In this document: one piece after another, positions 8,635-62,333 of the stretch
Position numbering within the stretch: position 1 is the stretch's first letter
Layout of the letters: every line of letters begins with the position of its first letter
Assembly: GCF_018143015.1 (NCBI RefSeq)
Contig: NC_054753.1
Location: 29,095,462 to 29,159,461 of the forward strand
DNA length: 64,000 nucleotides
Direction of reading: 5' to 3'
Source: Lytechinus variegatus
Lineage: Eukaryota; Echinodermata; Echinoidea; Temnopleuroida; Toxopneustidae
Position numbers and translations under genes: made by a program
The notes under the pieces: generated by a model
Seen by the model: the letters and a program-made list of their open reading frames with translations, nothing else
The model's database searches: none
Told to the model about the DNA's origin: nothing

Positions 8635-8802
8635 GACAATCGCATCGACGCGACTAGTCTTCGAGATCAGACGTAGTTAATCTACGCACCATGTTGGAGT
8701 AGGGTCATCAGAGGTGATGGGAGCGGAGGGGGGGGGGGGCTGTTTACCACCGGTATGCCTAGACGTGCTGTTGTTGTTGATGATGATGATGATGATGCTG
8801 AT

Positions 8803-38933: not shown

Positions 38934-39247
38934 TCAAATGTTCTCTTTATCAGGAACTGGCTGGTACCTGCTCCCCACACTCTGGACAGCGTACTGATTC
39001 CCCTCGGTCAGCCTCCGCCTCGTCCCCGCTTTCTGGTATGCCACACCCACTTTATGGGTTGAGCCCCCCTGCTGGCGGAGGGCTGGCCGATGGGCTGGGT
39101 TGGGGGAGTCTTCAAGAAGATTCCTGGTAGAGAGGGGCGATCGCTGGCTGGTGGTGGTGGAGATGAACTTGTCCTTGAGGGAACGACGGATGCTGTGTTT
39201 CTTGACTTTGGAAGATGATAGCGGTGACTCAGCTAGGAAGATCAACT
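38934..39247 (-). CDS. CDCA3: CDCA3 terminal coding exon (KEN box)
   Basis: Acceptor atctttcag|agttga. Reads ELIFLAESPLSSSKVKKHSI, then RSPLSTRNLLEDSPNPAHRP and a C-terminus PVPDKENI. The SSK..RSPL..L.DDSP-like order follows human CDCA3. Confidence 0.9.
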
Positions 39248-42200
39248 CTGAAAGATATAAGAGGATTAAATGAAATTTTGAAAAAAAATGTCTTTGTACT
39301 AGAAGGACTATTTCTCTTTATGATAATCTCAAGATTTCTGCCATTGAAGGACTATGCAAAAGACAGTTCAGTGATGGTTTATACTTTTCATCTCTTGCTG
39401 TTTTTCTGTACTGAGTCCAGCGGACACCAATGCACATACATGTAGAAAGCGCTCTAGGCCTACATATAAATGTTATCATTTATCATTTCTATGCATATTT
39501 GGATCTTGTCTTGGGGAGCATACATGTACATTATATCAACATTTTGTTGCCTAACTAGTTGTCAGATCAGATGAATTTCCTTGCTTTTGATTGGCTGAGA
39601 AGCACTGTTACCTCAATTACGGTAACTGTCCGATAAAACAGGACTTGTCGGATGAAATGCCTGACAAGCCTTCATAAAATGCTCCCAGGAAAGCACCTCA
39701 CCCCACTGGCTCAGCCAGTTTTACATAGGCGTATACACCCATTGGGCTGGGTAAATACATGTACATGTATACTCTAATGGCTTTTGGTGGATAAAAAATG
39801 GGGGATTCTCACAAGATGGATATAAATTGCAAAGACTGCAAAATCCAAACTGAGAATTTGACTGATTGTAATATTGCCAACTTCTCAATTCTTGGTAGAC
39901 TTCCCTTATGATCTAGACAACTGTTACTTTTTACTCTTAACCTTGCTGACTTTATTTTGAAAGTGAAACCCCTTTTGCAGATGAAATAATTATCCTTTTA
40001 TAATAATAATATTCCATTTATAAATGCTCAGCACTTCCTGGTATTTAAGAGGTTTTCAAAGCCATATTAGTCATGTGTAACCTTAAGTTGCCTTTTTCTC
40101 AGACAAGATATAAATATAGACACTTTTGTTTTGCTTTCTAAATGCACTAATAGCAGGGAAAATGAGCAAATGATGGAATATCCCACGAATGACTCATTTC
40201 ATTTTGTAGGCATATTTTCACTTTGTATATTTTTTGTGTTGTCACTTTGAAGAAAAAATATGATCAAGGAATAATATTCCTGGTATTGCGTTGTAGTTAT
40301 GTATTGAGTTTTTTTCTAAATGCTATAAAAATATCTTGCAGGCTTTTAAAAGCCTTTTAAACAATGAAAAGTTGCAACATTTCCAAGAAAAAGCATGAAG
40401 TTTTGTTGATAAAATTTGATGATAAAACAGTTTACTGTAGAAATTGCATTCACACAACCAAATTTATACTGTACATTGATTGTATTGGAACAAAATTAAT
40501 TTTGGAAATACATGCAATTTCATGTCATGCAGACAGCATTGCAAAAGTTTGATGACTGCAAAAACAGAATGCTTTTGTCTTTTGGCTTTGATGTCAACTG
40601 TGCAATCACCCTTTCTGCATTTCAGAGAAAAGCAGTCTTGTCGCTAACACATTTGGCCATACAGGAGTATACCCCTCCCCCTCCAAATTCTTCCAGTATT
40701 TTTTTTACTACATGTATTCTTTGTTAGAGATGGACTAAATCATTGTATTGGAATGTTTTCCTCATACATTAAGGGACACCTACATGTACATGTAAAGGCC
40801 TTTGAACAAACCATCCTTTCTCCTGAATAAATTGAAGTATTGACTACAACTGTAGGCCACTATTGACCCATTCTCCTTTCACTTTGCTCACTCAACAGGT
40901 TACTATAATACATGTTTGTAAAGCACAGAACAGGGTTGTCCAGTGTGGTAATTGTGGCGTAGTTGGTTTGTGACTCTCTGTAGTACAATGGGTACAGTGT
41001 ACATGGTGATAAGACCAGGGATATGAGACTTGAAACGGATCCTTTCTCCATATTTCAAAGTTTTGTTTGCCATTTCAACAGAAGCAGGTTGGGCCATACA
41101 TGTTTTTCAAAGAATGAATTGCTTCACTATGGAATTATCTGGAGTACATGTCCCGGGGGGGGGGGGGGGGCCACTTCCATTCACGAGTGGATACCATGCG
41201 CGACCATGGGGTCTCGAAAAGCACCCTAAACACGTAATTTCCATATTCTGAAAATGCACCCCTTAACAAGTATTGGCGTGTCAAACCCTACCCTTAACAA
41301 GTATTGGAAACAAATCGATACTCTTGGCAAATATTCCCTGAAATGAACCCCTAAACAAGTACAGGAATGTTTTATTGTTACGGGTCCTTTGGTTGTCGGC
41401 TTTACCTTATTTGGTTTAGTACGACCCCACCTTCTACACCTAGCGCAAATAGGACTCTAAACACGTAGTGTTGGGGCAAAAAGGACATCCTTTATAAAAC
41501 ATTTTAATTTTGTTTTATCATCCCCGCAAATTCGATCCTAAACACGTAATTTTCCTAGCGAAATAGATACCCTTTTTTCATTATTTTTGTGTTTTTGACA
41601 CCCTTTTCACGTTACGTACGTAACGTGCCCTATCGTGAAAAGGACATCCTTTTTACGTGTTTTTTTGGTCGCGCATGGTATCCACTCGTCAATGTAAGTG
41701 GCCCCCCCGGGGTACATGTACACGTACATACTGATTACAACATTGAATATAGCATGAAACTAAAGTGAAAAACACACAAAGGTAGACTATTACAGTGCCA
41801 CAAGGGCTTAGGGCAATTTGTCCCAAGTTGTGAAAATATCCAACATTATTGCCATGGGCTTCAATATCTTTTGGAATGAGGAGACATCTGCAATTGCCCC
41901 CCCCCCCTACATTTGCTGTATACAGTCTGCTGTGCACATCCTTTAAAGAATACGGGTCTGAATGTGCAGCCAACAATGCGTTATGTACTGAAGGCCCTTT
42001 CGCTTCGCTCAGGAGCAGCAAGCTTTATGAGGGCTAGTCTTTGCGTGGAGACCCACTTGTTGATTATTATTATTATTTATTCGGCAATTCAAAATACATA
42101 AATTACAGTACAACTACAAAACAAATAACACAGTTTCAATCGGGGTCTGTGCCTGCAAACTAGCTCCCCCCCCCCATAGAGAAATCTTATTTTTCGCCTG

Positions 42201-43723
42201 ACATGAACTGAAGTGTTCGTAAGACCTGACCTTTGTGCCGTAAAAAAATGTGTAATGATATCGGGCAGAAAAGCAGGAAATGGTCTCAATTCCTTCATTA
42301 GCATTCAACTGGTATTACTATAAATCCAGGAAGACATCATGTGGCTTCTTCATTAAATTCATGATCATCATTATTTTACATCATTTCTTCAATCAAGTCT
42401 ATATAAAGTTCATTAATAAGCCTTAAGCTGGAATCCCACTTTCAATTTCTGCTATATGGACATGCATAAATTTAATTGCTCTTCTGTACTTCGCAAACAG
42501 GAAATGAACACAATGAATGGGACAATTCTTGAATAAGATCTGGATCTCCCATTTTCTCTACTTTCCTCTTGGAAAACACAAGAATATGTACTTTTGACTT
42601 TTGAGTACATGTGCATGTACATGTAGGCCCATGCTGTAGCGTTGGGAAGAAAACGTATTACCCACAACCACAATGCTTCTGATCATTGATGCTTCCCAGT
42701 TCTCAGTGATAATTTTTCAAGCCAGCCAACTATTGAAGAAGTGGTCGGTCGGGTTTCCTTTTTTAGTTGTTACATGACCATATTATCCATCACTATTACC
42801 ACATATTTTTTCCCTGTGGTATTTATAAAGTTTGAAGACTAACCACAGTAGGGTGCTACATATTAAGCACTTGCCCAATTGCTGGGGCGAGTAAAAGTTA
42901 GAGCCGGACAAGTGTTTTGAAATAAAGACCAAAACTACTTGCCCGAATTGGGCAAGCAAAATTCTCACAGTAGAATGACCGAAATAAGGGTCGATACTTT
43001 GATGCTAATTTTGGTCATGGAAGGTGATCTGTTCATGCCAAAAAGAGAGAAAAATGTCAATGGTTTATAAAAGTTAATAAAACTGCAAAACTTTCTTTTG
43101 AAGAGGTAGAAAAAACTTCCAAGGACTTTTGGGGGCAAGTAAAATAGATTTTTGGGCAAGTATATTCCAACTATTTGAAAATATACTTGCCCGACTGGGC
43201 AAATGCTTCTAAAAAGTTATGTACATGTAGCACCCTGCACAACTAATGCCCACATAAAAATACTCTGTAGACTACACTACAGCGTACATACATGTATGTA
43301 TGTACACTTTAAAATTAATCGACATGAAAAAATTTATTTCAAGGAATCATTACTCTTCCACCTCTCCCATACTGTATTATTATTAATGGGTTACTTTCAA
43401 GTTCCCAATAATCTTGATTTCACTTTCAATATTGATTTTTCATTCTATTCAACCTGGTGCATTCTGAGTAATTGCAATCTAATGCATGCATAGTTTCTGG
43501 CCATGCAAGGCTAATGCATGCAGACTGCATTACAGCTGTTAACCCACTCTGTAATGTAATCTAATCTGATAATCTATTCCCATCTCGCAATCAATCAGAT
43601 TCTAATTTACTGGCATGCATCCCAAGCTGGATATGAAGAATGGCCGACGAAGACGTCCACATCAGTGGCGGATCCAGGTGGGGGTGCCACCCCCCCCCCC
43701 ACTTTAAAGAGCAAAATTATCAC

Positions 43724-43754
<31 letters not shown>

Positions 43755-46700: not shown

Positions 46701-49139
46701 AGTAACAACCACCAGAAACAAGACCAGTATACTTAAAGACCAGTTTAATTTTTAACTGGACCAGAAGGGGTAGTTAAAATTTTAACTGGACCAGTATGAC
46801 CAGTTAGACCAGTAAACCGATTAACTGGACCAGTAAAATTTTAACTGGACCAGTATGACCAGTTAGACCAGTAAACCGATGTTCCAATTTCCAGAGTTAC
46901 CAGTTAAAATTATACTGGTCTAACTGATCCAGTGGAACTGGTTTTGACTTCTGGGAAATCGAATGTAAAATATTAAGATATGACATTTAAAAGTTTTGCT
47001 TCATTTCACAAAACAGTTATATGCACCTCTCAGTCAGTATGCAAATGAGGGAAGTGATACTAGTGACATCACTCACTCACTATTTCTTTTGTATTTTATT
47101 ATATGAAATATTTTTGATTTTCTCATCATTGTCATGTGAAATGAAGTTTCATTCCTCCCTGAACACATGGAATTCCATTATTTTAACATTTTGTGCTTCA
47201 GGCAAGGAGGTCCTAATCATCAAATTCGTAAAAATTGAAACATTGAATAATAAAAACAATAAAAAACAAAAGAAATAGTGAGTGACATCATCGACTCTCT
47301 CATTTGGATGTAACTGGCTCGTTCATATAAATATTTTGTTAAAAATAAGTGAAACATTGAAATGTCATAACTTTCTTATTTTACCTCCGATTTTGATGAA
47401 ATTTTCAGCACCGTGCTTGTCTGATTTTTCTGTATTGATTCAAATCAACATTTTTCTGAGGTGGACTTGGTCTTTAATGTGCAATAGTGCAGTGCAATAC
47501 AAAACCTAAACTCATTTCAATGTAGGCCTAAGCCTTATTATTGCAAAAAACAAAAATAAACAGTAAAATGTTCCTTAAAAAAAATTGGTCTGTATTCTGT
47601 ATTAAACCCAAATCACAAATTACGGTACAATTGAATATTATTTTCACAAAGATCTAGAATTAGAAAGAAAAGAAAATTGCATGCAAATTCATGTGCTCTT
47701 GATAGGTACCTGCTAATGTATCACATCAAGAAGACGTAGACTCCTTACCCCTGTCGGAGAGAACCAAAGTTGCTTGGTCCTGTTCTTCAGTCTCCTCATT
47801 GGCTAATGTCTGCTTTTCCATCATATTTGACAGTTCCATTTCATATTCAGGGGTGTCTGACTTCACAAGTTCAGTTTTTAGTGTCTCCTGTTCCTCCGAG
47901 CTAGGACCATCATCCTCATCATCGACCACTAGCTGATCCTTTTCAGAATCAATCTGGAAAACCCCAGGTTCCGGGTCTTCTAGAACAGAAGAGGATTTTG
48001 CGATTGTATCATTGTCTTGGTTATTATTGCTGGTGGTATTTTCACACGGTTCTTCCTTGGTATCAGCTTGATGGACAGTAACTGTTTCCATGCTTGATCC
48101 TGTAATCATAGAGAACAATGAGGAAGATCTAATGGTATGGACATATTCATTTACAATATTGACTATTAAAATAAAAAGCAAAAAAAAAAAAAAAGAGATC
48201 CCCAAATACTGCAAAAAATCAACAGGATATTATTACTGTAGATTACTGGGGTATGAAATCTGCAATGAACAGGCTCATTGTGAGAAACAAAAAATTATAT
48301 TAAATAAAAAAAACATGTACCTTTAGACAGTGTGGTCAGCAGTACAATTTCTCCAGCAGGGCCTTTGAAGAGACAAAACTTTCGTTTCCCAATGGTGGAA
48401 TAGTGTTTATTCAATTAAAGACTAATCTATTCGAGACAAAACTTTTGTTTCCCCATGGTGGATTAGTGTTTATTCAATTAAAGGCTAATCTATTCAAGTT
48501 TTTCTACTGTCTTTGTGATGTAAATATGAATATTACTATTAGATAAACAGTGGGAGGCTAAATTCAGCAGATACTTGGAAACTTGGTAAAGGCCTTTAGA
48601 GGCTTTAATGAAATTATTAAAAATTGAAAAACAATAGTATGGAATATCAAGATTTTCAGGATTACTTTTTACAGGTTCTACTTTTCCATTGATCGATCCC
48701 AGTTCAGTATGGATATCCAGCTGCTGAACACTATTAGAGTAAACTTGTGAAAAAACCCTTAAAACGGATTAACGTTTAAAAAGGCACTATTACCCAAAGG
48801 AGCATCTTTGGCAATCGGTGTCCTAGCAACTGTCCTCGTTGGAGATCTTGGATCCGAGGAAGCAACTGGAAAGACAAAAGGCCCTGGTTCTCTCCCTGCA
48901 GAGGGTGACCTTGGATCAGAATCATCGGGAACAGGAGTCCTAGCAACCGTCGGTGAACGTGGATCATGAAACTCAGAGTCATCATTGACGGTCCTCTGCA
49001 TGGGAGTACGCTGGACGTCTTCGGACGGAGATCGAGGATCAATCAATGTTTTGACTCGCCGGTTAGCGATTGGAGTGTGGTACTGATCATCTTCATCTGG
49101 TTTATCACCATTTATTGACTTGCTTTCCGTTCCACCCAT
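38934..49139 (-). CDS. CDCA3: Cell division cycle-associated protein 3 (Tome-1)
   Basis: CDS is complement(join(38934..39247,47749..48099,48794..49139)), 336 aa (human 268). CDCA3 is known as a trigger of mitotic entry that promotes Wee1 destruction and is itself an APC/C-Cdh1 substrate. Exon 1 has four DPRSP motifs (residues 34-38, 59-63, 75-79, 96-100) and three RTP(I/M/V) motifs, the family signature; human has two such pairs. Exon 2 is acidic and low in motifs, as in other CDCA3 proteins. The C-terminus ends VPDKENI with a KEN box at 333-335, like human DKEN. The start MGGTES fits MGxxxS, as human MGSAKS does. All three exons meet in phase 1. An acceptor at 49167-49168 implies a non-coding first exon further right. 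USP5 lies divergently beside it. Confidence 0.93.
39533..39687 (+). mobile_element. Fold-back MITE, GTTTCATCA family, copy 4
   Basis: Has ctagttgtcagatcagatga, ttgattggctgagaagcact and ggacttgtcggatgaaatgc; ends ataaaatgctccc. It lies in CDCA3 intron 2, about 290 bp from the terminal exon. Confidence 0.7.
39690..41140. other. CDCA3 intron 2 DNA, nothing recognised
   Basis: AT-rich, with short frames only and a few acatgtac tracts. Confidence 0.45.
41152..41711 (+). mobile_element. CCCGGG 8-bp-TSD family, copy C (560 bp)
   Basis: Flanked by gtacatgt on both sides (41144-41151, 41712-41719). It is nearly identical to copy A, including the 20-bp palindrome, so both are relatively young. Confidence 0.87.
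41926..42165 (+). mobile_element. Short element GTCTGCTGTGC, copy 4, with a small insertion
   Basis: Collinear with 17565-17731 except that about 66 bp between ttgttgat and agtttcaat are extra (42062-42127). The insert starts tattattattatttattcgg and looks like the complement of a CR1 LINE tail ending (ATA)n. Confidence 0.65.
42849..43237. mobile_element. hAT-like MITE, CAGGGTGCTACATA family, copy 2 (inverse)
   Basis: Ends tagggtgctacatatta and tatgtacatgtagcaccctg. The body is the complement of 10636-11011 (for example gggcaagtatattccaacta and atggtttataaaagtt). It lies in CDCA3 intron 2. Confidence 0.75.
43673..43865. mobile_element. hAT-like MITE with CAGTGGCGGATCCAGG termini
   Basis: Ends cagtggcggatccagg and cctggatccgcccctg are inverted. 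The 8-bp flanks gtccacat and gtccactt agree at 7 of 8. A/T and G runs fill the centre. Confidence 0.78.
44196..44350. mobile_element. hAT-like MITE, CAGGGATGCCAG family, copy 2
   Basis: Ends tagggatgccagtt and aactgacatccctg; inverse of 8803-8918. tacagt occurs next to both ends. Confidence 0.7.
44911..45508. mobile_element. TTAA-bordered fold-back MITE
   Basis: Runs from ttaaagggaatgaaac to gttttattttcctcttaa. The arms pair over more than 200 bp: gaaacagaaaaaatcaaagg with ctttgatttttctgttttc, and atgctatggagatcct with aggatctccatagcat. No coding content. Confidence 0.72.
45574..47477. mobile_element. TTAA-bordered fold-back element, interrupted by another transposon
   Basis: Left border ttaaggacaagtccacc and right border ggtggacttggtctttaa are inverted and both carry TTAA. 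The left arm ..actgaaaatttcatcaaa is cut at 45658 and resumes at 46956 with aaatcg; the right arm has the uninterrupted complement cgattttgatgaaattttca. Without the insert it would be about 600 bp. Confidence 0.75.
45659..46955. mobile_element. CCAGT/ACTGG-array transposon, 1297 bp
   Basis: Ends cccagaaggaaaaaccagtt and aactggttttgacttctggg are inverted repeats. Subterminal zones of about 300 bp (left) and 370 bp (right) are packed with ccagt and its complement actgg, roughly every 10-20 bp in both orientations. The centre (46020-46260) is a degenerate ATT/ATC repeat. No transposase frame. The motif array may be subterminal transposase-binding sites (inference). Confidence 0.8.
47749..48099 (-). 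CDS. CDCA3: CDCA3 coding exon 2 (acidic middle region)
   Basis: Acceptor gattacag|gatcaa and donor caggg|gtaagg. Reads GSSMETVTVHQADTKEEPCE and further Glu/Asp/Ser-rich sequence. Assignment rests on phase match and position more than on similarity. Confidence 0.85.
48370..48497 (+). repeat. Tandem duplication, two ~63-bp units
   Basis: gagacaaaactttcgtttcc and gagacaaaacttttgtttcc start two units that both continue caatggtgga/catggtgga..tagtgtttattcaattaa. They lie in CDCA3 intron 1. Confidence 0.8.
48794..49139 (-). CDS. CDCA3: CDCA3 coding exon 1 (DPRSP repeats)
   Basis: Start ATG in aaagATGggtgg, donor ttgg|gtaata. The exon itself likely extends to 49166, where attaacag|gtgaaa is an acceptor for an upstream 5' UTR exon. 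Confidence 0.92.
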
Positions 49140-49169
49140 CTTTAATCGTAGAGACAGGATTTTCACCTG

Positions 49170-50900
49170 TTAATGAAACAAGATAAAAACAAGAAAATTA
49201 TTAGAAACTCAACTACATCTACACCTCATTCTGTAATCAAAACAGATGTTCATATGAAGAAAGTCCAAGGATGCTATGCACAACTTTTAAAAAAATAGTC
49301 TGAAACCAAAAGGAAAATTGAAAAACTTGTAAAAAAATATTAATAACTAAAACTGAAGAAAACAATGATATATACATGTAGGCCTATTATTTTCTTCTTC
49401 AATATAATTTACAAAGTCAGTTCACATCCAATTTATAATGATAGACTGATCAACATTTAGAACTGCCCAGTGCCCAGGTTCTGCATATACATTTACATCT
49501 AAAATTCTAGTCTGTTAAGGATTTAAACCATGATAAGATTTTGATTCTGACTCCGTAGTACGGTAGTATTAAAGCTGACTGACGTGTATTTGCCCCCTCA
49601 AAAAAAAAAAAAATAGATCAAAATCAAAATGGCAATGAAAATGCCCGCTCCCCCCAACCAAAACAAACAAAAAATAGATGACTCAGGAATCTCAGCTGTG
49701 ATACTCAGAAAACAGTAAAAGTGTTTAGTTTCCCAACTTGAGCAATTTCAACAACAAAAACAAAAAAAATCAAAGTTCACCTTGCCCTTCGACTTGATCC
49801 CGCTGCCCAACTTTGCAAAATTTGGCATTGTTCTTAACAATCCTGCAATTTATCTAAATTAATGAATGAAAAGCAATCTAGGAATTTATTTTTATCGAGC
49901 CTGAATTAAATTCCCCTCTCAAGTTGAAAACTGCCAAACGATCAGTGACTGTCACATCCAAAGTTTGGACCAAACAGACCAATATTAACTTCCTCAATTA
50001 TTTGAAGTTCAGTATTATATTCCAACAAAATTCCAACACTCCAACAGTCACTCCACAACTTCTTCACAAGAAACTTCAAATGGCAACTGGCATTTAATAC
50101 ACTGGCGCAGCTAGGCTGTGTGAATGTGACAGTCGCTATTGAAAACCACCGGCGGCTAAAAAAAATAGGGCTACGGAAGGGACAAACAAAAGCGAAGTGC
50201 AGTGGCGAGAACTTCATCAGATTCAGAGGCAGAGAAGAAATCGTTATGAATTTTCTGAGCACATGCAAACACATCGCTCCTCCTACACAAAATGACCGAT
50301 TCTTCAGGGATTACTCACTCAAACAAAGGCTGTTTTGTATGTCATCAACGCGGTTTTCGTCATACTTTCCTCACTCTCAGAGCTTCAATCCGTGCGTGAC
50401 TCACGCAGTCCAAATATATTATTACTCATCGTTCACTCACACAGCACGGACCCGACCGAGCGGGGCGCGGGGGCAAGCAGGCATCGATCGTTACCGCTTT
50501 ACGTACCGTATACCTGTACGCCCCTCACCCACACAGCTACAGTGTAGTACAGACAGAAAACAAACCATTCAAAAGACAAAAATCCGAAATCGAACCCATC
50601 CCTTGAGATAAAACACAATCGAATCTAATCTTGAAAATTTGGGCATGCCAAAATTTGTAATTGAATTATGATGGCAACCTTGATATTTCTTTACCGATCC
50701 ACTGCTCCAACTTCTTGATTCGTGTTTTAATATATGGAAAATGATACAAACCATAAAAATTTTCAGTTGAAAAGTAAACGAACCAATCAGCATCCTGAAA
50801 AGTATAGGTTTATGAATATTCATAATCTCGCAAAAAACGAGAAGCCAAATTCGAGAATATATTATGATCAAAAACATTTTGTGCGAGACCAATGTCCAAG
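49170..50900. promoter_or_regulatory. Divergent CDCA3-USP5 5' region, probable bidirectional promoter
   Basis: It separates the CDCA3 first coding exon (minus) from the USP5 start (plus). It should contain a non-coding first exon of CDCA3 and both transcription starts. The part 50150-50530 is richer in G+C and CpG than the surroundings. No TATA box is evident. Cell-cycle (CHR/CDE) sites were not firmly identified. Confidence 0.55.
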
Positions 50901-51002
50901 ATGGCAGCTTCCAAACTGCACGAGTTTCTTGGCAAAATAAAAGTTCCAAGAGGAGGAGAGAAGGTTTATAAAGATGAGTGTGCATATTGTTTCGACAACC
51001 CG
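50901..51002 (+). CDS. USP5: USP5 exon 1
   Basis: Encodes [20 protein letters not shown] and on to CFDNP; donor cccg|gtaagt, phase 0. It is followed by a 9.4-kb intron filled with LINEs. Confidence 0.92.
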
Positions 51003-54000
51003 GTAAGTTTATATCAGAGGCAATATTAGATATCAGATTTGTCGCAATATAGTCAGTGATTTATTCATTTTTTTGTAAGGAAACTGGGTCTGACTGAGGT
51101 GAGTGAGTAAGCTGACTCAGCCTCAAGCGCAGGCGAGGGTTCTATACTGTGCGGTATACCATCAGGCAAGCACGGAGGATGTGTCACAATAATCTCCTTT
51201 CAGAAATTGAGGATGCAAAAGGTAGCAATGACAAACTCTTCTATAGGCTTGTCAAACGCACCAAAGGATCTCGGTCCACCGACACACTGTCTTATAGGGG
51301 TACAACGTATGAAGGAGAGGCAGTTTTAGATGGCTTCAACACATATTTCTCAGATCTTGCTAAACCGGATTATATAAATGCCTCTTCTCCGCCTGAAATA
51401 GATGAAGCCTTCCCCACTCGCCCGTTCCAGGACAATCTGAATCAACCACTTCAACCCTCTACTTCAAAAGATCTAGATGAAGCTATTAACTCTCTCAAGA
51501 AACAAAAAGCTGCAGGACCTGATAATATATCTCCTGAGCATCTTATATATCTTGGCCCAATAGCTCGGAAATTACTCCTCGCCCTCTTCAATCGATGTAT
51601 ATCCCTAAAGTATATTCCTGAACCTTTGAAGTCCGGCCTTATAGTCCCAGTTCACAAAGGAAAAGGAAAAGATGTTAAAGATCCTTCTAACTACCGAGGC
51701 ATAACAGTTTCTTCAACAATTGGTAAAGTTTTGGAAATGCTCATCAAATCTCAACTAGAATTCCACTTGCAATAAATGATGTCCCAGACCAGTTACAATT
51801 TGGATTCCAGAAAGGCAAATCTTGCCTCCTTACTGCATCCTCACTGGAATTAATAATCCAACTGAACTCTGCCAAGAAATGCACAACATATCTTGCTCTT
51901 CTTGATGCACAGAAAGCATTTGACATCGTTTGGCATAAAGGCCTATTTTCTAAGCTTCAAAACCTAGGCCTCCATGAATCTCTGTTATCTACACTGGAAG
52001 AATTCTACAATGGTAGTACCAGTAGAGTCATGTGGGAAGGAAAAGTCAGCTCTCCTTTTCAAATCCTTCAAGGTGTAAAACAGGGAAGTGTGCTCTCTCC
52101 CACCTTATATACAGTCTTCATCGATGGCCTGATCAAATCACTAAGGAATGCTTGTCTAGGATGCTCTATTAACGGTTGCTACATGGGAGTGATAGTACTA
52201 GCAGATGACGTTGCTCTTATCAGTACATGCCCTCGTGAACTCCAATCAATGCTGGACCTCACCTTCAATTATTCCTGTGCCTGGAGATATAAAATTAATC
52301 CACAAAAAAGTGCCGTAGTAGTAATAAACAAAAAAACATCAACCAGTGTAAGTTCAATCGAGTGGAAAATGGGAGGAATGACGATCAAGGAAAGCAGAGA
52401 GCACCCACACCTTGGCATAATAAAAAGCAATTGTAATATTGATCACACCAATGACATCATATCAAAGGGATATAACACCTTCTTCTCGCTTACTGGAACA
52501 AAGCAAGGAACTCTACGCCTGCTGCCACCAATATGTACTCATCTTTGGAAAATGTTCTGCATACCAAGAATGCTATATGGGATTCAGATTATCCAACTTA
52601 CCAACTACATGCTGTCCCGTCTGAACAAGGCTCAATCTTTTCTTTTTAAAAGAGTGCTTGGTTTGCCAAGGAGTGCGGCTGACGAAATTGTTTATTTATT
52701 GCTAGATATCCTTCCAATGGATAAGCGAATCGACTATGAAATTCTTCTCTTACTTGGGCAATATGCAAGCCTTTCAGACGAGCGCACTGAAAGAAGAATC
52801 CTATCCTATTTGGTTCCCAATTTTGTGTAAAGGAGTGAGTTGGGGCGCGTCACAGCTGCTCCAACTTTCTCCTCGATTTGGTTGGACCTGAGTTCTATGT
52901 TACTTTTGATTTTGTTACTGATTTGTTCATTATGTGTCACTCATTATGCAGGATCATTTGGAAGTGATATTTTTTGATGGATTTTCTGTATTTGTGTGAA
53001 CTATTTTTGACTGTCTCCATTCTCAGTTTGTAAGTAGTAGCCATACTGTACAGCACAGGTTCAAGTCACTATACACTTTCTATTTAGAGTGTTAGGTGAA
53101 GTGTACCCATTCATACTGTTCCCTTATTTTGTAAAGGAAGATTTAAAGGTATTGAATTAAACACAATAGGTTACGTAACCTCATACAAATGGCATTCATT
53201 CATAATACCTTTACTGTTCAGGGCTGTGCTCTTGTACTGGTTTTAATTTCTTCTAATGTATTTTTCAGTATAGCTGGTGGCGATCAGTTTATTTGTACTC
53301 ATTTTCTCACAGATTCCCCATCCACTGTGATTCTTAATTCACCATCTTATCTGAGATTACGATATGTAGGTAAAAGAATATCTTATTACTGTACTCCTAC
53401 ATGTACGTCAACTTTTCAGTTAAGTTTTATTCAGTGTGGGGACGTACATCCGAACCCAGGTCCAACCCCTAAAAATAATGAGGATACTTATGCCAACTGT
53501 AATTATACAAATAATATATCTAAGATGTGTGCCATTAGAATTAAGTATGACATCAATACCCTGTACCAATTAAATTCTAAGCAATACAATGTATCTTCTA
53601 CCATATGGTCCACATTAAATGATTTGGGTATTTGTAGAGGTCGAACAAGAAGATGTCGAAAAGGGGGAAGATGTAGACGACGACGAGCGCATCAAGAGCT
53701 ACCTGAATCCCAGACATCTAATGAAGTCACAAAAGATTCAGTGACCTTAGCCCTGTGGAACGCCAGATCACTGAATAATAAGACTCATATGTTCTGTGAC
53801 CTCATGATCAACAATCGAGTCGACATCGCAGCTATAACAGAGACGTGGTTCACAGGTGATCATCGCGATGACATCCCACTAGCACAGATATCATCCACCC
53901 TCCAGAGCTATATCGTACATCATCAGCCAAGAAAGGGTCGTCTAGGAGGTGGTGTAGCTGTATGTATACATCAATCCTACAAAGTCAAGGAGTTTAAATC

Positions 54001-57000
54001 AACCAATATCTTCACATCATTTGAATACATGGATGTACTCGTTACTGCTCATGGACATGTTCCGGTTCGACTTCTGGTCGTGTATCGCCCACAACGAACC
54101 GCTTCTGGACAGTCTACTGATCAGCTTTTTCTTCAAGAATTTTCTACACTTATGGAGCAGCTTGTATCTTCAACGCATCGGTTACTGATTGTTGGTGATT
54201 TTAATTATCACGTGGATATTGCTTCGGACTCAAACTCTGTCAACTTCCTGAATGATATTGCAGCTCTTAACCTTCAGCAACACGTCCATTTCCCAACACA
54301 TACAAATGGACACACATTAGATCTGGTTCTTACACGAGCAAATGAGGCCTTCATTAGTAATGTATCAAAAGAAGGTTATCTACCATCCGATCATGTAGCC
54401 GTCACTTGCTCTTTGAACATTCGTAAACCAAAGCCCCAAAAGGTACAGATCATAACTCGCAAAATCCAAAATATTGATCTTGAGGCATTTCGTCAAGACA
54501 TTCTTGTGTCTGAGCTATACTCTACCCCCTCGGACACCATAGATGGACAGGTTGACCGGTTTGAGTCTACACTTTCTACTCTCCTAGATAAGCATGCCCC
54601 GGTGGTTACACGCGTCATTACAAGCCGACCTGAATCTCCTTGGTATGGTGATGACCTGCGAGAACTTAAGCGTGAACTTAGGGTATTAGAACGTAAAGCT
54701 TTCCCACGTGGTTTGGAGATCGATCGGGAGCGTTTCCGAAAGGCAGCCCATCACTACAGTAACAAGCTGAAATCTGCAAAGAGTTTGTATCATCGAAACC
54801 AGCTTAAAGACTGCACTCCGCGTGAACTATTCAAGACGATTGAACGGTTAACGCAGCCTACCACTTCTTCAGTCATTCCCAGTATAAATAACTGTGACTC
54901 AGTAGCTGAATGTTTCGTTGATTTCTTCAAAGAGAAAGTAACAAACATAACCGATCAGCTAAAGGTTACATCTTTGGCTACATCTTCGCCGAGTGGCATC
55001 TGTGAGGAGCTTTCCAACTGCAAGTCATCATTTACACACTTCAAAACAGTGTCAGATGAAGAAGTACGTAGGGTAATCATGCAGTCCTCTACATCAACTT
55101 GTGATCTTGACCCCATTCCAACATCATTTCTTAAGCAATTACTACCTGAGCTTGTTCCTATAATGACAGAAATCATTAATGAATCATTTATATCTGGTTG
55201 CTTCCCTAGTAAATTTAAGTGTGCTAACATCATTCCCAAATTAAAAGGAAATTCTCTGAACAAGGAAGAGCTTAAAAACTACCGCCCTATTTCAAATCTA
55301 AGATTCTTTGCCAAGATCTTGGAAAAATTAGCTGCTTCTCAATTACAAGCTTATCTTAACGAATATGATTTACATGCCAAATTTCAGTCAGGTTATCGCC
55401 AATACTATGGTGTAGAAACGGCTCTTCTTAGGGTAACAAACGATATTTTGATATCATTAGACAGAGGTGAAGAAGTTATTCTTATATTACTAGACTTTTC
55501 GTCAGCTTTTGACACCATTAAACATGACATTCTCCTGAAACGTTTAGAGTATATATTTGGGATACGTGATCTGGCTCTACGATGGTTTCATTCATATCTT
55601 TTAGGTCGAAGCCATCGTGTCGTCATTGGAAGTGAGAAATCAACTTTCCACTCTTTAACTCAAGGTGTTCCTCAGGGATCTGTACTGGGGCCGATCTTAT
55701 TTACACTGTACACTTCCCCACTTGAGTCAATCATTGATAAGTTCAAAATACAAAAAATGTTTTATGCCGATGACACACAACTGTATGTTACCCTTAAAAA
55801 GTTTAAGGATTCTGACCCCACTGCTGAAATTACACAATGTATTCAAGAGATTAAAGAATGGTCACAGATCAATAGCCTCAAACTAAACGGTGAAAAAACA
55901 GAGTTTTTACACATTTCCTCACGTTTTCGAGAAACAGAATCAATCCAGATATTAAAACTTGGTGGAATGGACATACGCGCAAGTACTTCTTGTAGAAATC
56001 TAGGAGTTATATTTGATGATAAACTGACATTCGATGAATTTATATCCCAAAAATGTCGCTCTGCATCATATGCCTTATACAAAATTGGTAAACTTCGTGA
56101 ATTCTTGGATAAACCCACCACTGAAAAATTGGTACATGCTTTTGTTTTATGTCACATTGATTTCTGCAATAGTCTCCTTTCAGGATTACCTATTAAACAA
56201 ATTAAAAAACTGCAAACCATTCAAAATTCAGCTGCGAGATTAGTAACACGAACACGCAAGTATGAAGCAATTACTCCAGTTCTCAGAGAATTACATTGGC
56301 TCCCTGTCCGTTCCCGGATTGTATTCAAACTTCTAGTTTTTGCACACAACTGTTTTTATAAAATTGCCCCGTCCTATTTACTCGATTTAGTTTCATATTA
56401 CCAGCCATCCCGAAATCTTAGATCAAGCTCAAAAGCATTATTTGTTGTTCCCTCTGTCTTTACAAAGTCATATGGTGAGCGTGCTTTTACTTATGCCTCT
56501 GCTGTCCTCTGGAATGCTTTACCGAATTCAATGAGATATCAAAGTGATTTATGTACATTCAGGAGATCCCTCAAAACATATCTTTTCAATGCATAAAAAA
56601 CTAACTTTGAACTAATGGTCCAATCTAAATATCTCGATTACTTTATTCTTATATACCTTTCACTATTTCTTCTTTAAGCGCATAGGGACATGCTATGCTA
56701 TGTGTGATGCGCTATACAAGAATTGAGCATTATTATTATTATTATTGAATGGTATAGCAAACAATACACCATTGGTAAGACGCTGGATAAAAATTCTCAA
56801 TAGTTATGAGCTTCCAAGTCTCACTAACATCCTTAGAGAGCGCATTCCATATAAAGTATGGAAGAAGCTAGCAATGGGAAAAATTTATAAACAACACTAT
56901 GCAGCCCTTGAAATTGCAGTTGCTAAAAAATCTTCTCTAAGTCTATGGTCGGGCATGACCCAACGTAATAAAAAGAATTATTACCCAAAGCAAGTCTCCA

Positions 57001-60000
57001 GCCCTCTCTTGAGGGAAGCTATATCCATCAGAGCTCAATTATCCTGCAGTACATACCCAACGAATAGAAGATTATTCTCTCTGAATCAAAGTACCACAAC
57101 GTCCTGCAAGTTCTGCCACTCCGAAGTGGAAAGCGTTGTACATTTTGTTGGAGAATGCCCAGCGTTTAGCACACACAGGAAAACACTTCTACACTTAATA
57201 AAAGAAGACGAGGAACTGCAGTATTTTTCTGTGTATTTCAATGATCAAGAACCTCAACAATTTACCGCTTCCGTCCTGTTTCTACCTGACGTCGAATTAG
57301 CAGATTCCTCCAGAAACGACCTTAACCTACTTGTCTTAAATTTCTTGCATAAGATTCACCTCTCTCGATCTACCTTACTCTCACGTCAAAATATGTAACG
57401 CTACCATTAATGCAGTATCAAACTGCGGATCTCCGATACAGCGGAGGAAGGATACAGAAGAAGAAGAAGAAGGTAGTACCGATACCGGTATAGGCTCCAC
57501 ACCTCACGACACCGCGACCGCTACCCTCCGGGGTATTCTGAAAAGTCTCGTATCGTAAGTTTCCACTTAAATTTCCTTTTTAAGTTACCCATTTAATGGA
57601 GCGCTAATGTACCTCCAAATTCGTATTCTGAAAACTCTATTTCAGAATACGAATTTGGAGGTACATTACTTAGCCTTAGCGCTCCATTATTTAAATGGGT
57701 AACTTACCCGGTCGGCCCGGTAGTTAAAATTTTTATAAAAGGAAATTTAACTTTAACTTGTGGTGAGTTACCACTCTTACGAGACTTCAGAATACCCCCC
57801 GGCTCCGCTCTCGCTCCATATCCCAACCCTCGGCTCGGGGGACAATACTTACTCTCAAAAAACAGACAAATTGTGGCACTTCATGGTAACAAAGGAAACA
57901 TTTCAAAACCTAACCTTCTAAAGTACATTCAACTTACACGTAAAATGACCATTGCCTGGCATTGGACACAGATTCAGTCCTTGTCCTTTCTTGAAATTTG
58001 AAAATGTCTCGAAAAAATACAAAATGATAAAAAAAATTAGAATTCCTCAAATAACAATAAATTGGTGTGATTTGAAAGCTCTTCTTAAAGAGACCTTTCA
58101 AATAATACCAAAAACTCTAATTTTCATCCAGGAATTGTAAAGCTATTTCACTTCCAGTAAAGTTGTGCATGGCCATTGTCATTGCTTTAGCTTTGGCATT
58201 GTCTTAATAATATTATTATTAAGTCACTCAATGGAATACGTAACCGATTATTCTGACCATTTTGAACCCAACCCAAGTCTTGAACAGGCTCTAGCTTCTT
58301 TGCTTTTTAGCCCTTTGAAGTATTCAATGGAAAGGTGAAAGACAACTCAATTGATGTGTTATCATGTCACTTTGTATTTTTTTTCTTAATTATGTGCAAG
58401 TTACAATTATTTCTTCTTTCTAATTAAGCAAATTATGTAAAATAATTACTTGCCTCTTTTTTTGCCAAATGAAGGTGATCATAATAGATAATTCATATAA
58501 TTTAGTTGGCATCAAAACAGCATCATGTGTTTGATAATTTTCTTAATAAATTTGTTTAAAGTACATGTATTTGTAATATATTTGTTTCTTTGTTTTTCTG
58601 ATATAAATTACAAGGTTTTTTCAACTTAAGTATTGTATACTGTATACATGTATGTGCGGGTTTTTGATTTGACATATGAAAATTATCATTCCTTTTGTAC
58701 TTCATATGGTACAAAAATACAGTGTATTTGATTGTTTCACCAATTCCATATGTTCCTTATGTATTTTATTATTTCAATAATTTGTTACATAATAAGTAGC
58801 TTTTGATTTTAGAGACCCTGGGCATTTGATAATATTTTTTTAGGAGGGATGAGCAGCTGAGTGTTTTCAACTTAAGTATTGTGTATATGTACAGGGTCTT
58901 TTTTGACATATGAAAATTATCATTTTGTATTTTGTATGGTATAAAAATACAAGTGTGCTATTTTCTAATGTATTTGATTGTTTCACCAATTATGTATTTT
59001 TTGTGTCAACAATTTGTTATACATGTATAATATGTAGCTTTTGATTTTAGAGACCCTGGGCATTTGATTACAATTTCTTCAGGAGGGATGAGCAGCTGAG
59101 TGTTAAATATGTATGTAGTAGTAGTATTGTATGCAATTCGTTACAAGTATCAAGGATACATGAAAATTAAGCTTCAATATATTTATTACTTTTTAATGCA
59201 TTTCTTCGATTTGTATACATATTATGAAGGCCCTGTTTGAGCTCTTTTTTTAAAGAAAAATAAATAAATTCATATTCTAGAGTGAAAACACTGTACATAA
59301 ATGTAGACATACAGATACTTCCATACTATGAAACAAAACAACAAAATTAACAAGATTTTTTAAAAAGAACTTCACAATCCAAACTTACCAATCTTCCCAT
59401 TAATAAACTTGAAAGGCACCCAATTATTAGTTGAAGACAAACGAAAAGGAAAAGAGTGGTCAATAATATCTTTCAAAACAAAATAAAAAAACAGAAAAAA
59501 TAACAAATTCAGACATCAAAGCTCTAAACAAACAAAATTAATCCCATCCCCATTTTCCAGTAATAAACACACCCCCACCTGCACCCCTCATGAAAAAAAA
59601 AGAAAAGGAAAAAAAAAATAGAAAAAAAAATCAATAAATATAGGACCTAGACCAATGTGGAAATGAAATATTCTTTCCTCTGAGTTTTTATATATTTTCT
59701 ACAAGAGTGAAAAAAAACATAATTTTTTGAATTTTGATTAAAAAGTCAACATTTATGATATTCCCCTTTCAAAAGCAAACCCAGTCTCCAAATAATGACA
59801 CATGATTGAAAAATTTTCCATATATATATATATTTCTACAAAAGAAAAAAAAAGCACCATAGATTTTGCATTTTAAATTTAAAAAGTTAACATTGATATT
59901 CCACTTTCAAAAGCAAATCCAGTTTCCAAATGATGAAACATGATTAAACAATCAACTACCTTGACTCTTGAGTCACATAACCATGGAAGGTGATGGAAGG

Positions 60001-62333
60001 AACATATATTTTTTGTGACAAAATGTATATATCAGAATACTAATCTATGGTGTAATGACAGAAATTTTCAGAAAAAGGTGCAATTTTATCAAGTAACAAA
60101 CAATTCAAGATCCAGTTCAATCCAGCATGTAAAACATAATAAAGACAGAATTATTTTTAAAAAAAGGCTGGACTTGGTCTGGATTTGTTGGTCTTGCTGA
60201 GAAGATATGGTCAGTCCATCATTTTAAAGGAGAATTTCACCCTGAAAAAAAGTTTATTGTAAAAAAAAAATCAAACAGAAAAATAAATTAAAAAAATATT
60301 GGTGCATGTATTGCTGTGAATAGCATGATGTTCAGTAGGGAACTGGATAAATTTTCTTGCATACATGTATTTTGAAGGATGCAGTATTTGTTTCAATGTT
60401 GCATTATTATTATTTTTCATTTGCTTTTATACAGGAAAGTGAGACAGGATTGTTTGTGTGTATGAATACATTTCTTGGTTTCGGGAAGGACTATGTTCGG
60501 AGGCACTATGAACGCACAAACAACCCTGTGTATTTGCACCTCAAGACTATCAAAAAGAAGGTAACTTTAAACCAGATAAGAACCAATAGAGCAATCTCGA
60601 GTCCTCAACTACTCGTACCTGGCCAGTTTCCTGACCCATAATGCTAGTGTAGTCTAGTAATACAGACCCACTTGAATGATAACATGCTAAATAATGCAAT
60701 TATTAATTATGTTACCAAGTAGCAAAGCAATGAATTCCTCTCAAAACATTTCAGTTTCTCTACACAAATACAGTTATTCGTCAGTTTATTCTCTGTAGTA
60801 TTTATAGTAGATATCTCAAGACATATATGTTAAGACTGTATTTATAACACACAGTTAATGAGATGCCACACACATTTTACTCCCACCTCAAACTATCCAT
60901 TTGGAAATACTTCAGTGATGTATGTCCATGCACATGTACTCTCAAAGTATTGAATATGGAATTATGGTTCATGAGGCTGCTTCCAAGTAGACATTGTGTA
61001 TCTTGTAGAAGCATCTCAATTCAGCATTCTTTTCAAATGAGTGTCTTTTCTTTCTCATCTCATCCCCCCAAATACTAGTAGTTTTATTAGAATCGTTAAT
61101 AAAATGTGATAAAGTAAAAGAATTAGTACATGTATAATCTAATTGATACACAATAAACGGATGTCTTTATCGTGTAAGTGAATGAAGGAATGCAGGAATG
61201 AATAAAGAAATATGAATAATTGAATTGATTCAAGGATTCATATTAATTTTTGATCGTGGATCAGTTGGATGTATTCTTCAGTTCAGGTTTTTGAAGGATT
61301 TGAAATGTTACACTCATTCTTAAAAATCTGTTAAGGATTGACTGATTTTTTTTTCATTTCTTTTTTAGAAGCCAAAAACAGAGGAAGAGAAAGAGAAAGA
61401 GAAGCCAACGAGACTTGCCATAGGTAAGCTATGACATTGAACAGGGATGGTATTCAGATCACTTCTAAGTATTTTACTTTATTACTTTTTCGAGCCAAAT
61501 TTTTAGCAAAATACTTAATAGCCAAAAAGAAAATTGTGTATTATACATATTATTAACTATATCAGACATCTGAGCAGGGCAACTTAACTATATTATTGCC
61601 TGCTTATGACTGTGATCAAATGGTCAGTCAATAAGTTTCCAATTGTTTATCCACAGACCCAAGTTATTGCCCACTCAGGGAAGTCAATGAGAAAATGCAT
61701 GGAAATGAAGCGGGTAATACTGCAGAGCGAACATCTGGATACGCATCCTATTGAAACGCACATCAACAATATACATTAATCAAGATGAGACAACACTCGA
61801 TAGTGCGTCCCCAGTTTAGAGGCCCAGTCTGCTTAATATGACAAAATAGATTCCCATTCTTAGGGGGTGAAATATCTTAATTTTCATGATTTTTGCTCCA
61901 GATTTCTGATTTGGATGGAAATAAAAATATTGTCTGGCTTTTCTTTTGGGGGACATTAAATATATTGCCCTTAAAAGAATCATATTGCCCCTGTCTAAAG
62001 ACTCGATTCGTTTGCAGGTAATATATTTGATGTTCCCTTCAAGGCCAGTCAATATTACATGACTATCGCATACCATAGTCACATGTTTCTCCCAATGGAC
62101 CCTAATTTTCTACAAGCTTTACTCTTTTGGGGATCCACACTTTTTACTCTCTGTATTTCTTGTTAGTTTATACGTACTATAATTCATACATATTTTCTTC
62201 TTTCTGTCCAGGAATGCAAGGTGGTTTTGATGTAGAGGATGAAAACCAGTACGAGTATGAAGAACACAACTCCGTTGTCATCCTGCCTGACTTCACTGAG
62301 ATTCCACTTCCCAATGCCGATCTCCCCGAGAAG
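50901..62333 (+). CDS. USP5: Ubiquitin carboxyl-terminal hydrolase 5 (isopeptidase T), N-terminal exons 1-4
   Basis: CDS is join(50901..51002,60435..60560,61369..61423,62212..62333), continuing past the window; 135 codons are present. USP5 disassembles unanchored polyubiquitin chains. The exons encode the N-terminal cryptic zinc-finger UBP domain: [20 protein letters not shown], then [20 protein letters not shown] and [17 protein letters not shown], then EKPTRLAIG, then [20 protein letters not shown] followed by [11 protein letters not shown]. Each block matches human USP5 in order ([32 protein letters not shown]). USP13 is less similar, notably lacking PTRLAIG. The catalytic C19 domain, the ubiquitin-binding ZnF and UBA domains must lie to the right. 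The ATG at 50901 (aagATGg) beats an in-frame ATG at 50892. Confidence 0.94.
52829..56746 (+). mobile_element. CR1-type LINE inserted in the older LINE
   Basis: The element has a 5' leader (about 52829-53188), a single long ORF, a short 3' UTR with tgcgctatacaagaattgag, and a tail of (ATT)n ending at about 56746. It interrupts the older LINE between its RT and its C-terminal finger region. An intact ORF suggests recent insertion. The 5' border is approximate. Confidence 0.85.
53189..56596 (+). CDS. CR1-type LINE ORF: APE endonuclease plus reverse transcriptase, with 2A-like motif
   Basis: The uninterrupted 1135-aa ORF encodes the retrotransposition enzyme. Residues ~11-30 are hydrophobic ([17 protein letters not shown]). 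Residues 84-92 read GDVHPNPGP, a 2A-like motif with His at the usual Glu position. A basic stretch follows at ~150-168. The APE endonuclease covers ~185-410 ([29 protein letters not shown]), with the expected catalytic N, E, D/N and SDH. The reverse transcriptase covers ~690-960: [35 protein letters not shown] and FYADD at 858-862. The C-terminus has [20 protein letters not shown] and [10 protein letters not shown], typical of CR1/L2 elements. No separate ORF1 is visible. All catalytic motifs seem present. Confidence 0.93.
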   Translation: MAFIHNTFTVQGCALVLVLISSNVFFSIAGGDQFICTHFLTDSPSTVILNSPSYLRLRYVGKRISYYCTPTCTSTFQLSFIQCGDVHPNPGPTPKNNEDTYANCNYTNNISKMCAIRIKYDINTLYQLNSKQYNVSSTIWSTLNDLGICRGRTRRCRKGGRCRRRRAHQELPESQTSNEVTKDSVTLALWNARSLNNKTHMFCDLMINNRVDIAAITETWFTGDHRDDIPLAQISSTLQSYIVHHQPRKGRLGGGVAVCIHQSYKVKEFKSTNIFTSFEYMDVLVTAHGHVPVRLLVVYRPQRTASGQSTDQLFLQEFSTLMEQLVSSTHRLLIVGDFNYHVDIASDSNSVNFLNDIAALNLQQHVHFPTHTNGHTLDLVLTRANEAFISNVSKEGYLPSDHVAVTCSLNIRKPKPQKVQIITRKIQNIDLEAFRQDILVSELYSTPSDTIDGQVDRFESTLSTLLDKHAPVVTRVITSRPESPWYGDDLRELKRELRVLERKAFPRGLEIDRERFRKAAHHYSNKLKSAKSLYHRNQLKDCTPRELFKTIERLTQPTTSSVIPSINNCDSVAECFVDFFKEKVTNITDQLKVTSLATSSPSGICEELSNCKSSFTHFKTVSDEEVRRVIMQSSTSTCDLDPIPTSFLKQLLPELVPIMTEIINESFISGCFPSKFKCANIIPKLKGNSLNKEELKNYRPISNLRFFAKILEKLAASQLQAYLNEYDLHAKFQSGYRQYYGVETALLRVTNDILISLDRGEEVILILLDFSSAFDTIKHDILLKRLEYIFGIRDLALRWFHSYLLGRSHRVVIGSEKSTFHSLTQGVPQGSVLGPILFTLYTSPLESIIDKFKIQKMFYADDTQLYVTLKKFKDSDPTAEITQCIQEIKEWSQINSLKLNGEKTEFLHISSRFRETESIQILKLGGMDIRASTSCRNLGVIFDDKLTFDEFISQKCRSASYALYKIGKLREFLDKPTTEKLVHAFVLCHIDFCNSLLSGLPIKQIKKLQTIQNSAARLVTRTRKYEAITPVLRELHWLPVRSRIVFKLLVFAHNCFYKIAPSYLLDLVSYYQPSRNLRSSSKALFVVPSVFTKSYGERAFTYASAVLWNALPNSMRYQSDLCTFRRSLKTYLFNA
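57530..57800. mobile_element. Fold-back MITE GGGGTATTCTGAA
   Basis: Ends ggggtattctgaaaagtctc and gagacttcagaatacccc are inverted. A second nested palindrome sits at the centre: cctccaaattcgtattctga pairs with tcagaatacgaatttggagg. It lies 60 bp past the older LINE's tail, in a CpG-rich patch. Confidence 0.75.
57800..58610. other. USP5 intron 1 DNA, nothing recognised
   Basis: AT-rich, with only short frames. Confidence 0.45.
58617..59103 (+). repeat. Tandem duplication, two ~245-bp units
   Basis: Both units begin ttttcaacttaagtattgt and end agaccctgggcatttgat..aggagggatgagcagctgag. They differ by small indels and substitutions, so the duplication is not very recent. Confidence 0.85.
59690..59950 (+). 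repeat. Tandem duplication, two ~125-bp units
   Basis: Both units run from tatattt(t)ctacaa through cctttcaaaagcaaacccag / actttcaaaagcaaatccag to gaaacatgatt. Diverged. Confidence 0.72.
60435..60560 (+). CDS. USP5: USP5 exon 2
   Basis: Acceptor tttatacag|gaaagt, donor agaag|gtaact, 42 codons in phase 0. Carries [11 protein letters not shown]. Confidence 0.95.
61369..61423 (+). CDS. USP5: USP5 exon 3
   Basis: Acceptor ttttttag|aagcca, donor catag|gtaagc. Reads [18 protein letters not shown] plus the first base of Gly; the purine-rich Glu/Lys run is lineage-specific. Confidence 0.92.
62212..62333 (+). CDS. USP5: USP5 exon 4
   Basis: Acceptor tctgtccag|gaatgc, donor gagaag|gttagc (a weaker donor). 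Encodes [20 protein letters not shown] and [20 protein letters not shown]. Ends in phase 0; exon 5 is outside the window. Confidence 0.9.

Follow-up and report, generated by a model that had tools for sequence, protein, structure and literature searches.

In human, CDCA3 and USP5 are presumably direct neighbours at 12p13.31, arranged head to head, with transcription starts that we take to lie well under 1 kb apart. CDCA3 (Tome-1) is a cell-cycle-regulated substrate of APC/C-Cdh1 that carries, in human, a phosphorylation-dependent ABBA-like motif at residues 220-231, between its D-box and its KEN box. In a passage of PMC4470515, the genes named as conserved between mammals and fish at the CD4 locus are LEPREL2, GNB3, CDCA3, USP5, CLSTN3 and PEX5. 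The ape gene order given in part of PMC12077880 runs ZNF384, PIANP, COPS7A, MLF2, PTMS, CD4, GPR162, GNB3, CDCA3, TPI1, LRRC23 and ENO2, and leaves out USP5 and SPSB2. More generally, PMC12672016 counts 1,399 protein-coding divergently paired genes (DPGs) in human, with 101 conserved over its 46 study species and 66 in Drosophila; the term "sea urchin" is absent from its main text. A passage of PMC3403606 repeats the view that retention of bidirectional pairs is limited to vertebrates, and echinoderms, sea urchins included, are described in part of PMC13317027 as having retained ancestral macro- and microsynteny. The literature searched (supplements excluded) yielded no mention of a CDCA3-USP5 pair in echinoderms.

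A divergent pair in a sea urchin

We analysed 64 kb of the Lytechinus variegatus genome (hereafter the window, positions counted from its first nucleotide), in which CDCA3 on the minus strand and USP5 on the plus strand lie adjacent and head to head, with start codons 1,753 bp apart. An earlier note on this DNA had proposed divergent neighbours with start codons 1.76 kb apart; the exon models of both genes agree with that layout, and the computed distance with that spacing. The coding features are as follows (a slash marks the splice junction; splice-site scores in brackets):

38934..39247, minus: CDCA3 coding exon 3, with D-box RSPL, C-terminal KEN box and stop; acceptor CTTTCAG/AGTTG (4.1), phase 1
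47749..48099, minus: CDCA3 coding exon 2, acidic and bounded by phase 1 junctions; acceptor GATTACAG/GATCA (4.5), donor GGG/GTAAGG (8.1)
48794..49139, minus: CDCA3 coding exon 1, opening with MG and carrying four DPRSP repeats, of which three precede an RTP; weak donor TGG/GTAATA (3.7)
50892..51002, plus: USP5 coding exon 1, 43.6% identical to human USP5 residues 1-39; donor CCG/GTAAGT (10.5)
50,901, plus: second possible USP5 ATG, overlapped by the YY1-like AAGATGGC
51116..57398, plus: sequence from two or more non-LTR retrotransposons, in USP5 intron 1 and downstream of the candidate promoter interval
60435..60560, plus: USP5 exon 2, encoding most of the variant UBP zinc finger (9.3 and 8.7)
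62212..62333, plus: USP5 exon 3, tblastn match to human residues 102-131, E 0.005 (10.8 and 6.9)

From its sequence, the plus-strand gene is securely identified as USP5. The joined exons match zf-UBP_var at 1.2e-29 and the human USP5 structure 3ihp at 3e-31, and these matches, together with the exon chain, rule out a misidentification. With the presumed human USP5 sequence and domain limits as query, the chain reaches 93,768 in window-extended coordinates, and position 62,333, given in the earlier note as the end of the locus, is the end of exon 3 rather than of the gene. The tblastn exon chain at 64,995-93,768 (window-extended) covers the canonical ZnF-UBP and the Cys and His boxes, including NSCYLNS and GHYVCHIKKEG, and is joined by UBA-region matches at 89,607 and 91,591; within the same extended stretch, the UCH model matches the chromosome at 29,174,024 and 29,188,104. 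A zf-UBP_var search of the 870-Mb genome returned two matches, USP5 exons 1 and 2, and no second USP5 locus. In intron 1, RVT_1 is found in frames 51,727-52,827 and 53,156-56,593, the latter also with Exo_endo_phos, and further open frames lie at 51,116-51,772 and 56,727-57,395.

The minus-strand gene has three coding exons (49,139-38,934) and an in-frame product of 336 aa, with both introns in phase 1. This phase-consistent model supersedes a 350-aa splice model with different junctions, which was the query in the Pfam, PDB, genome and human-alignment tests below. Its identification as CDCA3 rests on N-terminal DPRSP/RTP repeats and on the succession of D-box and C-terminal KEN box. The repeats, which follow the MG start, match the presumed human CDCA3 sequence at E 2e-9 in pairwise BLASTP (four DPRSP copies here, two in the human protein), and the whole-protein Smith-Waterman score against human CDCA3 is 108, the maximum of 2,000 shuffles being 90. 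The RSPL D-box and the KEN box, the latter at the extreme C-terminus, stand 65 residues apart (60 in human); part of PMC9926468 likewise describes a C-terminal D-box (R198) and then a KEN box (K258) in human CDCA3.

That the gene instead encodes some other disordered protein with DPRSP repeats is highly improbable. In its favour, the protein has no match in Pfam or PDB, all but one of its four coding splice sites have low scores (3.7 to 4.5), inspection of the alignment by eye shows nothing that clearly corresponds to the ABBA-like motif in the stretch separating D-box and KEN box, and the C-terminal alignment to human CDCA3 is not significant (shuffled sequences score at least as high in 769 of 5,000 cases), although this last point is weak counter-evidence because the protein is described as disordered. 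Against it stand the N-terminal and whole-protein scores, the common order of MG start, repeats, D-box and terminal KEN box, and the lack of any other good candidate in the 870-Mb genome, where a search returned five matches at E<=1, three of them the gene's own exons and the other two at E 0.807 and 0.954, and no second CDCA3 locus. The location next to USP5 adds independent support. The CDCA3 assignment of the earlier note is upheld in its repeats, motif order and singularity in the genome, and not in its C-terminal alignment; with it, an echinoderm-like animal gains a CDCA3-like protein that has both a D-box and a KEN box.

The interval between the start codons

The region between the two genes contains the following features:

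49140..49166, minus: probable 5'UTR portion of a CDCA3 exon, preceded by the acceptor TTATCTTGTTTCATTAACAG/GTGAA (9.3)
49,945-50,310, minus: open frame without Pfam match
50,006-50,608, plus: open frame without Pfam match
50100..50891, no strand assigned: candidate divergent promoter, the CpG-preserved interval beside USP5; CpG o/e 1.13
50,572-51,060, minus: open frame without Pfam match
50781..50789, plus: NF-Y-like CCAAT box AACCAATCA

None of the three open frames in or across the gap (122-201 aa) has a Pfam match at E<=0.1, which argues against a gene within it. The 1,721-bp intergenic stretch matches itself alone in the genome, which speaks against a repeat between the genes, subject to the caveat that simple repeats and words of very high frequency are passed over in this search, so that rarity is unproven. 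The two genes are adjacent, on opposite strands and with no gene recognised between them, as in bidirectional pairs.

CpG preservation in the gap is confined to the 0.8 kb adjoining USP5. The remainder (49,167-50,099) has a CpG o/e of 0.34, the 800-bp median of the window is 0.48, and equal or higher values than that of the preserved interval occur elsewhere in the window at 33.1 kb and 28.1 kb. On the CDCA3 side, 27 bp upstream of the ATG, there is a strong splice acceptor; acceptors scoring 9.3 or more number 13 over both strands of the 64 kb. Taken together, this acceptor and the CpG pattern suggest that CDCA3 may start near USP5, and a non-coding first exon of CDCA3 may lie in the preserved interval, where candidate minus-strand donors include 50,528 and 50,506. 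Unless such a 5'UTR intron is real, a spacing of 1.75 kb between start codons exceeds the usual definition by transcription starts (<1 kb).

According to a passage of PMC6788831, G2-M genes are enriched for NFY and CHR motifs, and CDCA3 is among the S/G2-M genes. The NF-Y-like box is weak evidence, because 0.26 such boxes are expected by chance in the interval; CHR-like sites are not enriched (three found, 5.4 expected), the strict E2F consensus is absent, and one relaxed E2F-like site occurs, with 0.52 expected. With G2-M motifs unenriched or near chance, we build no claim on them. A shared promoter is plausible, in that the CpG interval, the probable 5'UTR intron and the lack of a recognisable gene between the two are all compatible with it.

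Chromosomal linkage and origin of the pair

The pair lies on chromosome C14, which makes up 3.9% of the genome. All seven human 12p13 families searched (GNB, TPI, CLSTN, MLF, COPS7, ENO and GAPDH) have their best match on this chromosome, 0.5-29 Mb from CDCA3-USP5; for the first six, the chance of this is ~3.4e-9 from chromosome length alone. GAPDH is ambiguous, with two further copies on C12 at nearly equal scores, and enolase has one weak match on C12 besides its best match. GNB, whose exons fall just under the curated cut-off and were searched one by one, and TPI are 12-16 Mb from the pair, and MLF is 0.5 Mb away. A ZNF384-like gene, 90-100 kb from CDCA3, is 56% identical to the human fingers, compared with 43% or less for the next three zinc-finger loci fetched, among 150 of 1,308 candidates scored. 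The nearest recognised flanks are a sulfotransferase, a Mab-21-like gene, a DNA-dependent RNA polymerase (PF00940 type) and an arylsulfatase, with neither GNB nor TPI among them. Two mid-window frames, 7,933-8,676 (minus) and 19,020-19,349 (plus), have no Pfam match and were dropped as parts of the Mab-21-like and sulfotransferase genes. Of the human junctions in GNB3-CDCA3-USP5-TPI1, the middle one alone is present here, and the linked genes are spread over 29 Mb.

One locus per gene, chromosome-scale linkage like that of 12p13 and different flanking genes give good support to the view that the divergent pair has been passed down together since echinoderms and vertebrates split. Independent joining of the two genes in both lineages is most improbable: residence on one ancestral chromosome makes re-joining not impossible, but random order would place these two genes side by side and divergent in roughly one case in 2,000 (our estimate, at ~1,000 genes on C14), and both genes remain in the conserved fish CD4 locus in the account of PMC4470515. 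The adjacency might also have been inherited with separate promoters, surviving either through the rarity of breaks in short gaps or through distal regulatory elements that keep the block together. We regard this as rather unlikely, although the retention of macro- and microsynteny by echinoderms (PMC13317027, in part), the spacing of 1.75 kb and the proximity of the ZNF384-like and MLF genes, which extends local linkage beyond the pair, all speak for it; against it, neither recognised flank is a human neighbour, and the CpG-preserved stretch runs uninterrupted up to the USP5 start while the CDCA3 side is intron-like.

On balance, we favour an inherited pair whose retention probably reflects a single short regulatory interval from which the two genes would start. 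CDCA3 and USP5 probably stood head to head in the echinoderm-vertebrate ancestor, on the chromosome that gave rise to C14 and to human 12p13; later intrachromosomal rearrangements would have carried GNB, TPI, COPS7, CLSTN and ENO megabases away with no break becoming fixed at the CDCA3-USP5 junction, most likely because a break would split the interval in which both would start. USP5 would start just before 50,892, and CDCA3 in a non-coding first exon within the CpG-preserved 50,100-50,890, followed by an intron that extends to 49,167; human biology suggests that general factors might serve USP5 and cell-cycle factors CDCA3. The ancestral pair with a shared promoter under selection put forward in the earlier note finds support as to inheritance, from loci and linkage, whereas its promoter part is compatible with the sequence, and selection would be one possible cause beside neutral retention of a single old neighbour pair. 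That an indivisible promoter dates back to the deuterostome ancestor, or further, and has persisted is a tentative proposal, possible but short of probable. If true, the junction couples transcription of a mitotic APC/C substrate to that of an enzyme recycling free ubiquitin chains, and a functional link between the two is speculation. The locus offers a concrete echinoderm-vertebrate case of a divergent pair retained on C14, where the places tested otherwise show wide reshuffling of gene order, and such retention counters the view, repeated in a passage of PMC3403606, that only vertebrates keep bidirectional pairs. Its small gap would suit a reporter assay in sea urchin embryos.

Comparison with known systems

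CDCA3 and USP5 are common to this locus and to the vertebrate CD4 region at human 12p13.31. Of the likeness to human drawn in the earlier note, linkage of the two genes in human and fish has published support, while head-to-head adjacency in human is presumed. Lytechinus variegatus differs from human in its distant GNB and TPI genes, its 1.75 kb between start codons and the retrotransposons in USP5 intron 1. As in DPGs, two genes are read outward from a short interval; DPGs, however, are defined by a distance of <1 kb between transcription starts, whereas the start codons here are 1,753 bp apart and a 5'UTR intron is probable. As in bilaterian microsynteny blocks, old neighbours have probably been kept across phyla. 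The examples of such blocks in part of PMC13317027 are developmental regulators (Pax1/9, Foxa, Tbx2/3 and Egr); CDCA3-USP5, unlike them, is a cell-cycle and housekeeping pair across a 1.75-kb gap.

Gene models of the CDCA3-USP5 pair

The exon models of CDCA3 and USP5 place the two genes head to head with 1,721 bp between them, bearing out the observation of the earlier note, orientation and spacing included.

Exons of the pair (window coordinates; the window is NC_054753.1:29,095,462-29,159,461)
49,139-48,794, minus strand: CDCA3 coding exon 1
48,099-47,749, minus strand: CDCA3 coding exon 2
39,247-38,934, minus strand: CDCA3 coding exon 3
50,892-51,002, plus strand: USP5 exon 1
60,435-60,560, plus strand: USP5 exon 2
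62,212-62,333, plus strand: USP5 exon 3

The three coding exons of CDCA3, separated by two phase-1 introns, encode a 336-aa product; splice scores are low at three of the four coding splice sites. Aligned pairwise with human CDCA3, the N-terminus matches at E 2e-9, and the whole protein scores 108, whereas the highest of 2,000 shuffles scores 90. By itself, the C-terminal third shows no significant similarity to human, its score being reached by 769 of 5,000 shuffles. The human order of D-box (here RSPL) and KEN box (here terminal) is kept, with 65 residues between them versus 60, the human positions being those in PMC9926468. Searches of Pfam and PDB with CDCA3 gave no match, and the genome-wide search found no second good match. 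The earlier note had allowed that the gene might encode an unrelated protein; we take it with high confidence to be CDCA3. Its start (49,139-49,122) reads MGxxxS, an N-myristoylation-like motif with which human CDCA3 also begins; judged by titles or abstract beginnings, none of the papers listed by a literature search was evidently on point for CDCA3 myristoylation.

Joined, USP5 exons 1-3 match the Pfam family zf-UBP_var (1.2e-29) and the human USP5 structure 3ihp (3e-31). With human USP5 as query, tblastn recovered an ordered exon chain reaching 93,768 (window numbering carried past its end), comprising the ZnF-UBP, the Cys box, the His box and both UBA regions. A profile search of the genome (869.6 Mb in 33 contigs, as in all genome searches) found no zf-UBP_var locus beyond USP5. 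The exon for human residues ~256-289 occurs in seven copies at 69,974-71,490 in the same numbering, with a ~175-bp period and one interruption. The AG acceptor and GT donor are intact in copies 1-4; the acceptor AG is gone in the last three copies, and the final copy has lost its donor too. Because the first copy is 95 nt long and those after it 101 nt (the last 100), one copy keeps the frame and two do not; from their sequence, the copies are candidate mutually exclusive exons. Intron 1 contains non-LTR retrotransposon sequence (51,116-57,398), including a 1,146-aa open frame with endonuclease and reverse transcriptase domains.

Chromosomal context and descent

In human, CDCA3 and USP5 adjoin head to head, with GNB and TPI as the pair's neighbours and GAPDH likewise in 12p13. 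Here, GNB and TPI lie 12-16 Mb from the pair.

Best matches of human-neighbourhood families on contig NC_054753.1 (C14)
0.40 Mb: COPS7
12.55 Mb: CLSTN
13.42 Mb: GNB
16.87 Mb: TPI
17.18 Mb: ENO
27.62 Mb: GAPDH
29.13-29.19 Mb: the CDCA3-USP5 pair
29.64 Mb: MLF

All seven families tested have their best match on C14, which makes up 3.9% of the genome; the chance of six out of six by length alone is 3.4e-9. GAPDH has two more copies on contig C12, scoring nearly equal to the C14 match, ENO has one weak C12 match, and GNB has weaker relatives elsewhere, the C14 GNB exons falling just under the curated cut-off because the search runs exon by exon.

Outside the planned family tests, the flank yielded a ZNF384-like C2H2 gene (C14:29,044,933-29,045,469; 491-aa open frame) 90-100 kb from CDCA3. 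Finger identity to human ZNF384 is 56% for this gene, compared with at most 43% for the other three loci fetched (150 of 1,308 candidates scored); by this resemblance it would be a second human 12p13 neighbour that has stayed close to CDCA3.

Other flanking features; the exons belong to the nearest recognised genes beyond the pair
~8 kb left of the window: PF00940-type RNA polymerase exon
6,281-6,991, minus strand: Mab-21-like exon (Pfam: Mab-21 nucleotidyltransferase and C-terminal domains)
7,933-8,676: 248-aa frame next to the Mab-21-like exon, without Pfam match
20.4-21.1 kb of the window: sulfotransferase exon (Pfam)
~119 kb: arylsulfatase exon

Flank genes with small exons may be missed, because the screen took frames of at least 80 aa and 10 of 205 were run against Pfam.

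PMC12077880 orders the ape locus as ZNF384, PIANP, COPS7A, MLF2, PTMS, CD4, GPR162, GNB3, CDCA3, TPI1, LRRC23 and ENO2, omitting USP5, SPSB2, LAG3 and P3H3 from its analysis; PMC4470515 reports that mammals and fish both retain LEPREL2, GNB3, CDCA3, USP5, CLSTN3 and PEX5 at this locus. From the best matches and the nearby ZNF384-like gene it follows that the chromosome ancestral to human 12p13 survives in C14. At the places tested, its gene order has altered widely; the junction of CDCA3 and USP5 has persisted. Inheritance of the pair from the common ancestor with vertebrates is very probable, as the earlier note had held; its further proposal, a shared promoter under selection, competes with neutral retention.

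The interval between the genes and possible shared regulation

The 1,721-bp interval matches only itself in the genome, in a search that skips very common words, and none of three open frames tested within it has a Pfam match. CpG o/e is 1.13 in 50,100-50,891 versus 0.34 in 49,167-50,099, the window median for 800-bp stretches being 0.48; the higher value is near the 99th percentile and is equalled at ~28.1 and ~33.1 kb. A splice acceptor 27 bp before the CDCA3 ATG scores 9.3, the same as that of USP5 exon 2 and a value reached by 13 acceptors on both strands of the window. CHR-like sites show no enrichment, with 3 present against 5.4 expected, and the single NF-Y-like and single YY1-like sites near the USP5 start prove nothing.

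Read most simply, CDCA3 would begin with a non-coding first exon lying within the CpG-preserved stretch, for which the candidate donors include 50,528 and 50,506; the two genes would then start within a few hundred bases of each other. Of the single explanations for why this junction survived, shared regulation is the best, with neutral retention as its competitor.

Deep conservation of divergent pairs is already known. PMC12672016 counts 1,399 such pairs in human, 66 of them conserved in Drosophila, though PMC3403606 repeats the view that their retention is confined to vertebrates. The CDCA3-USP5 pair described here very probably adds one more case.
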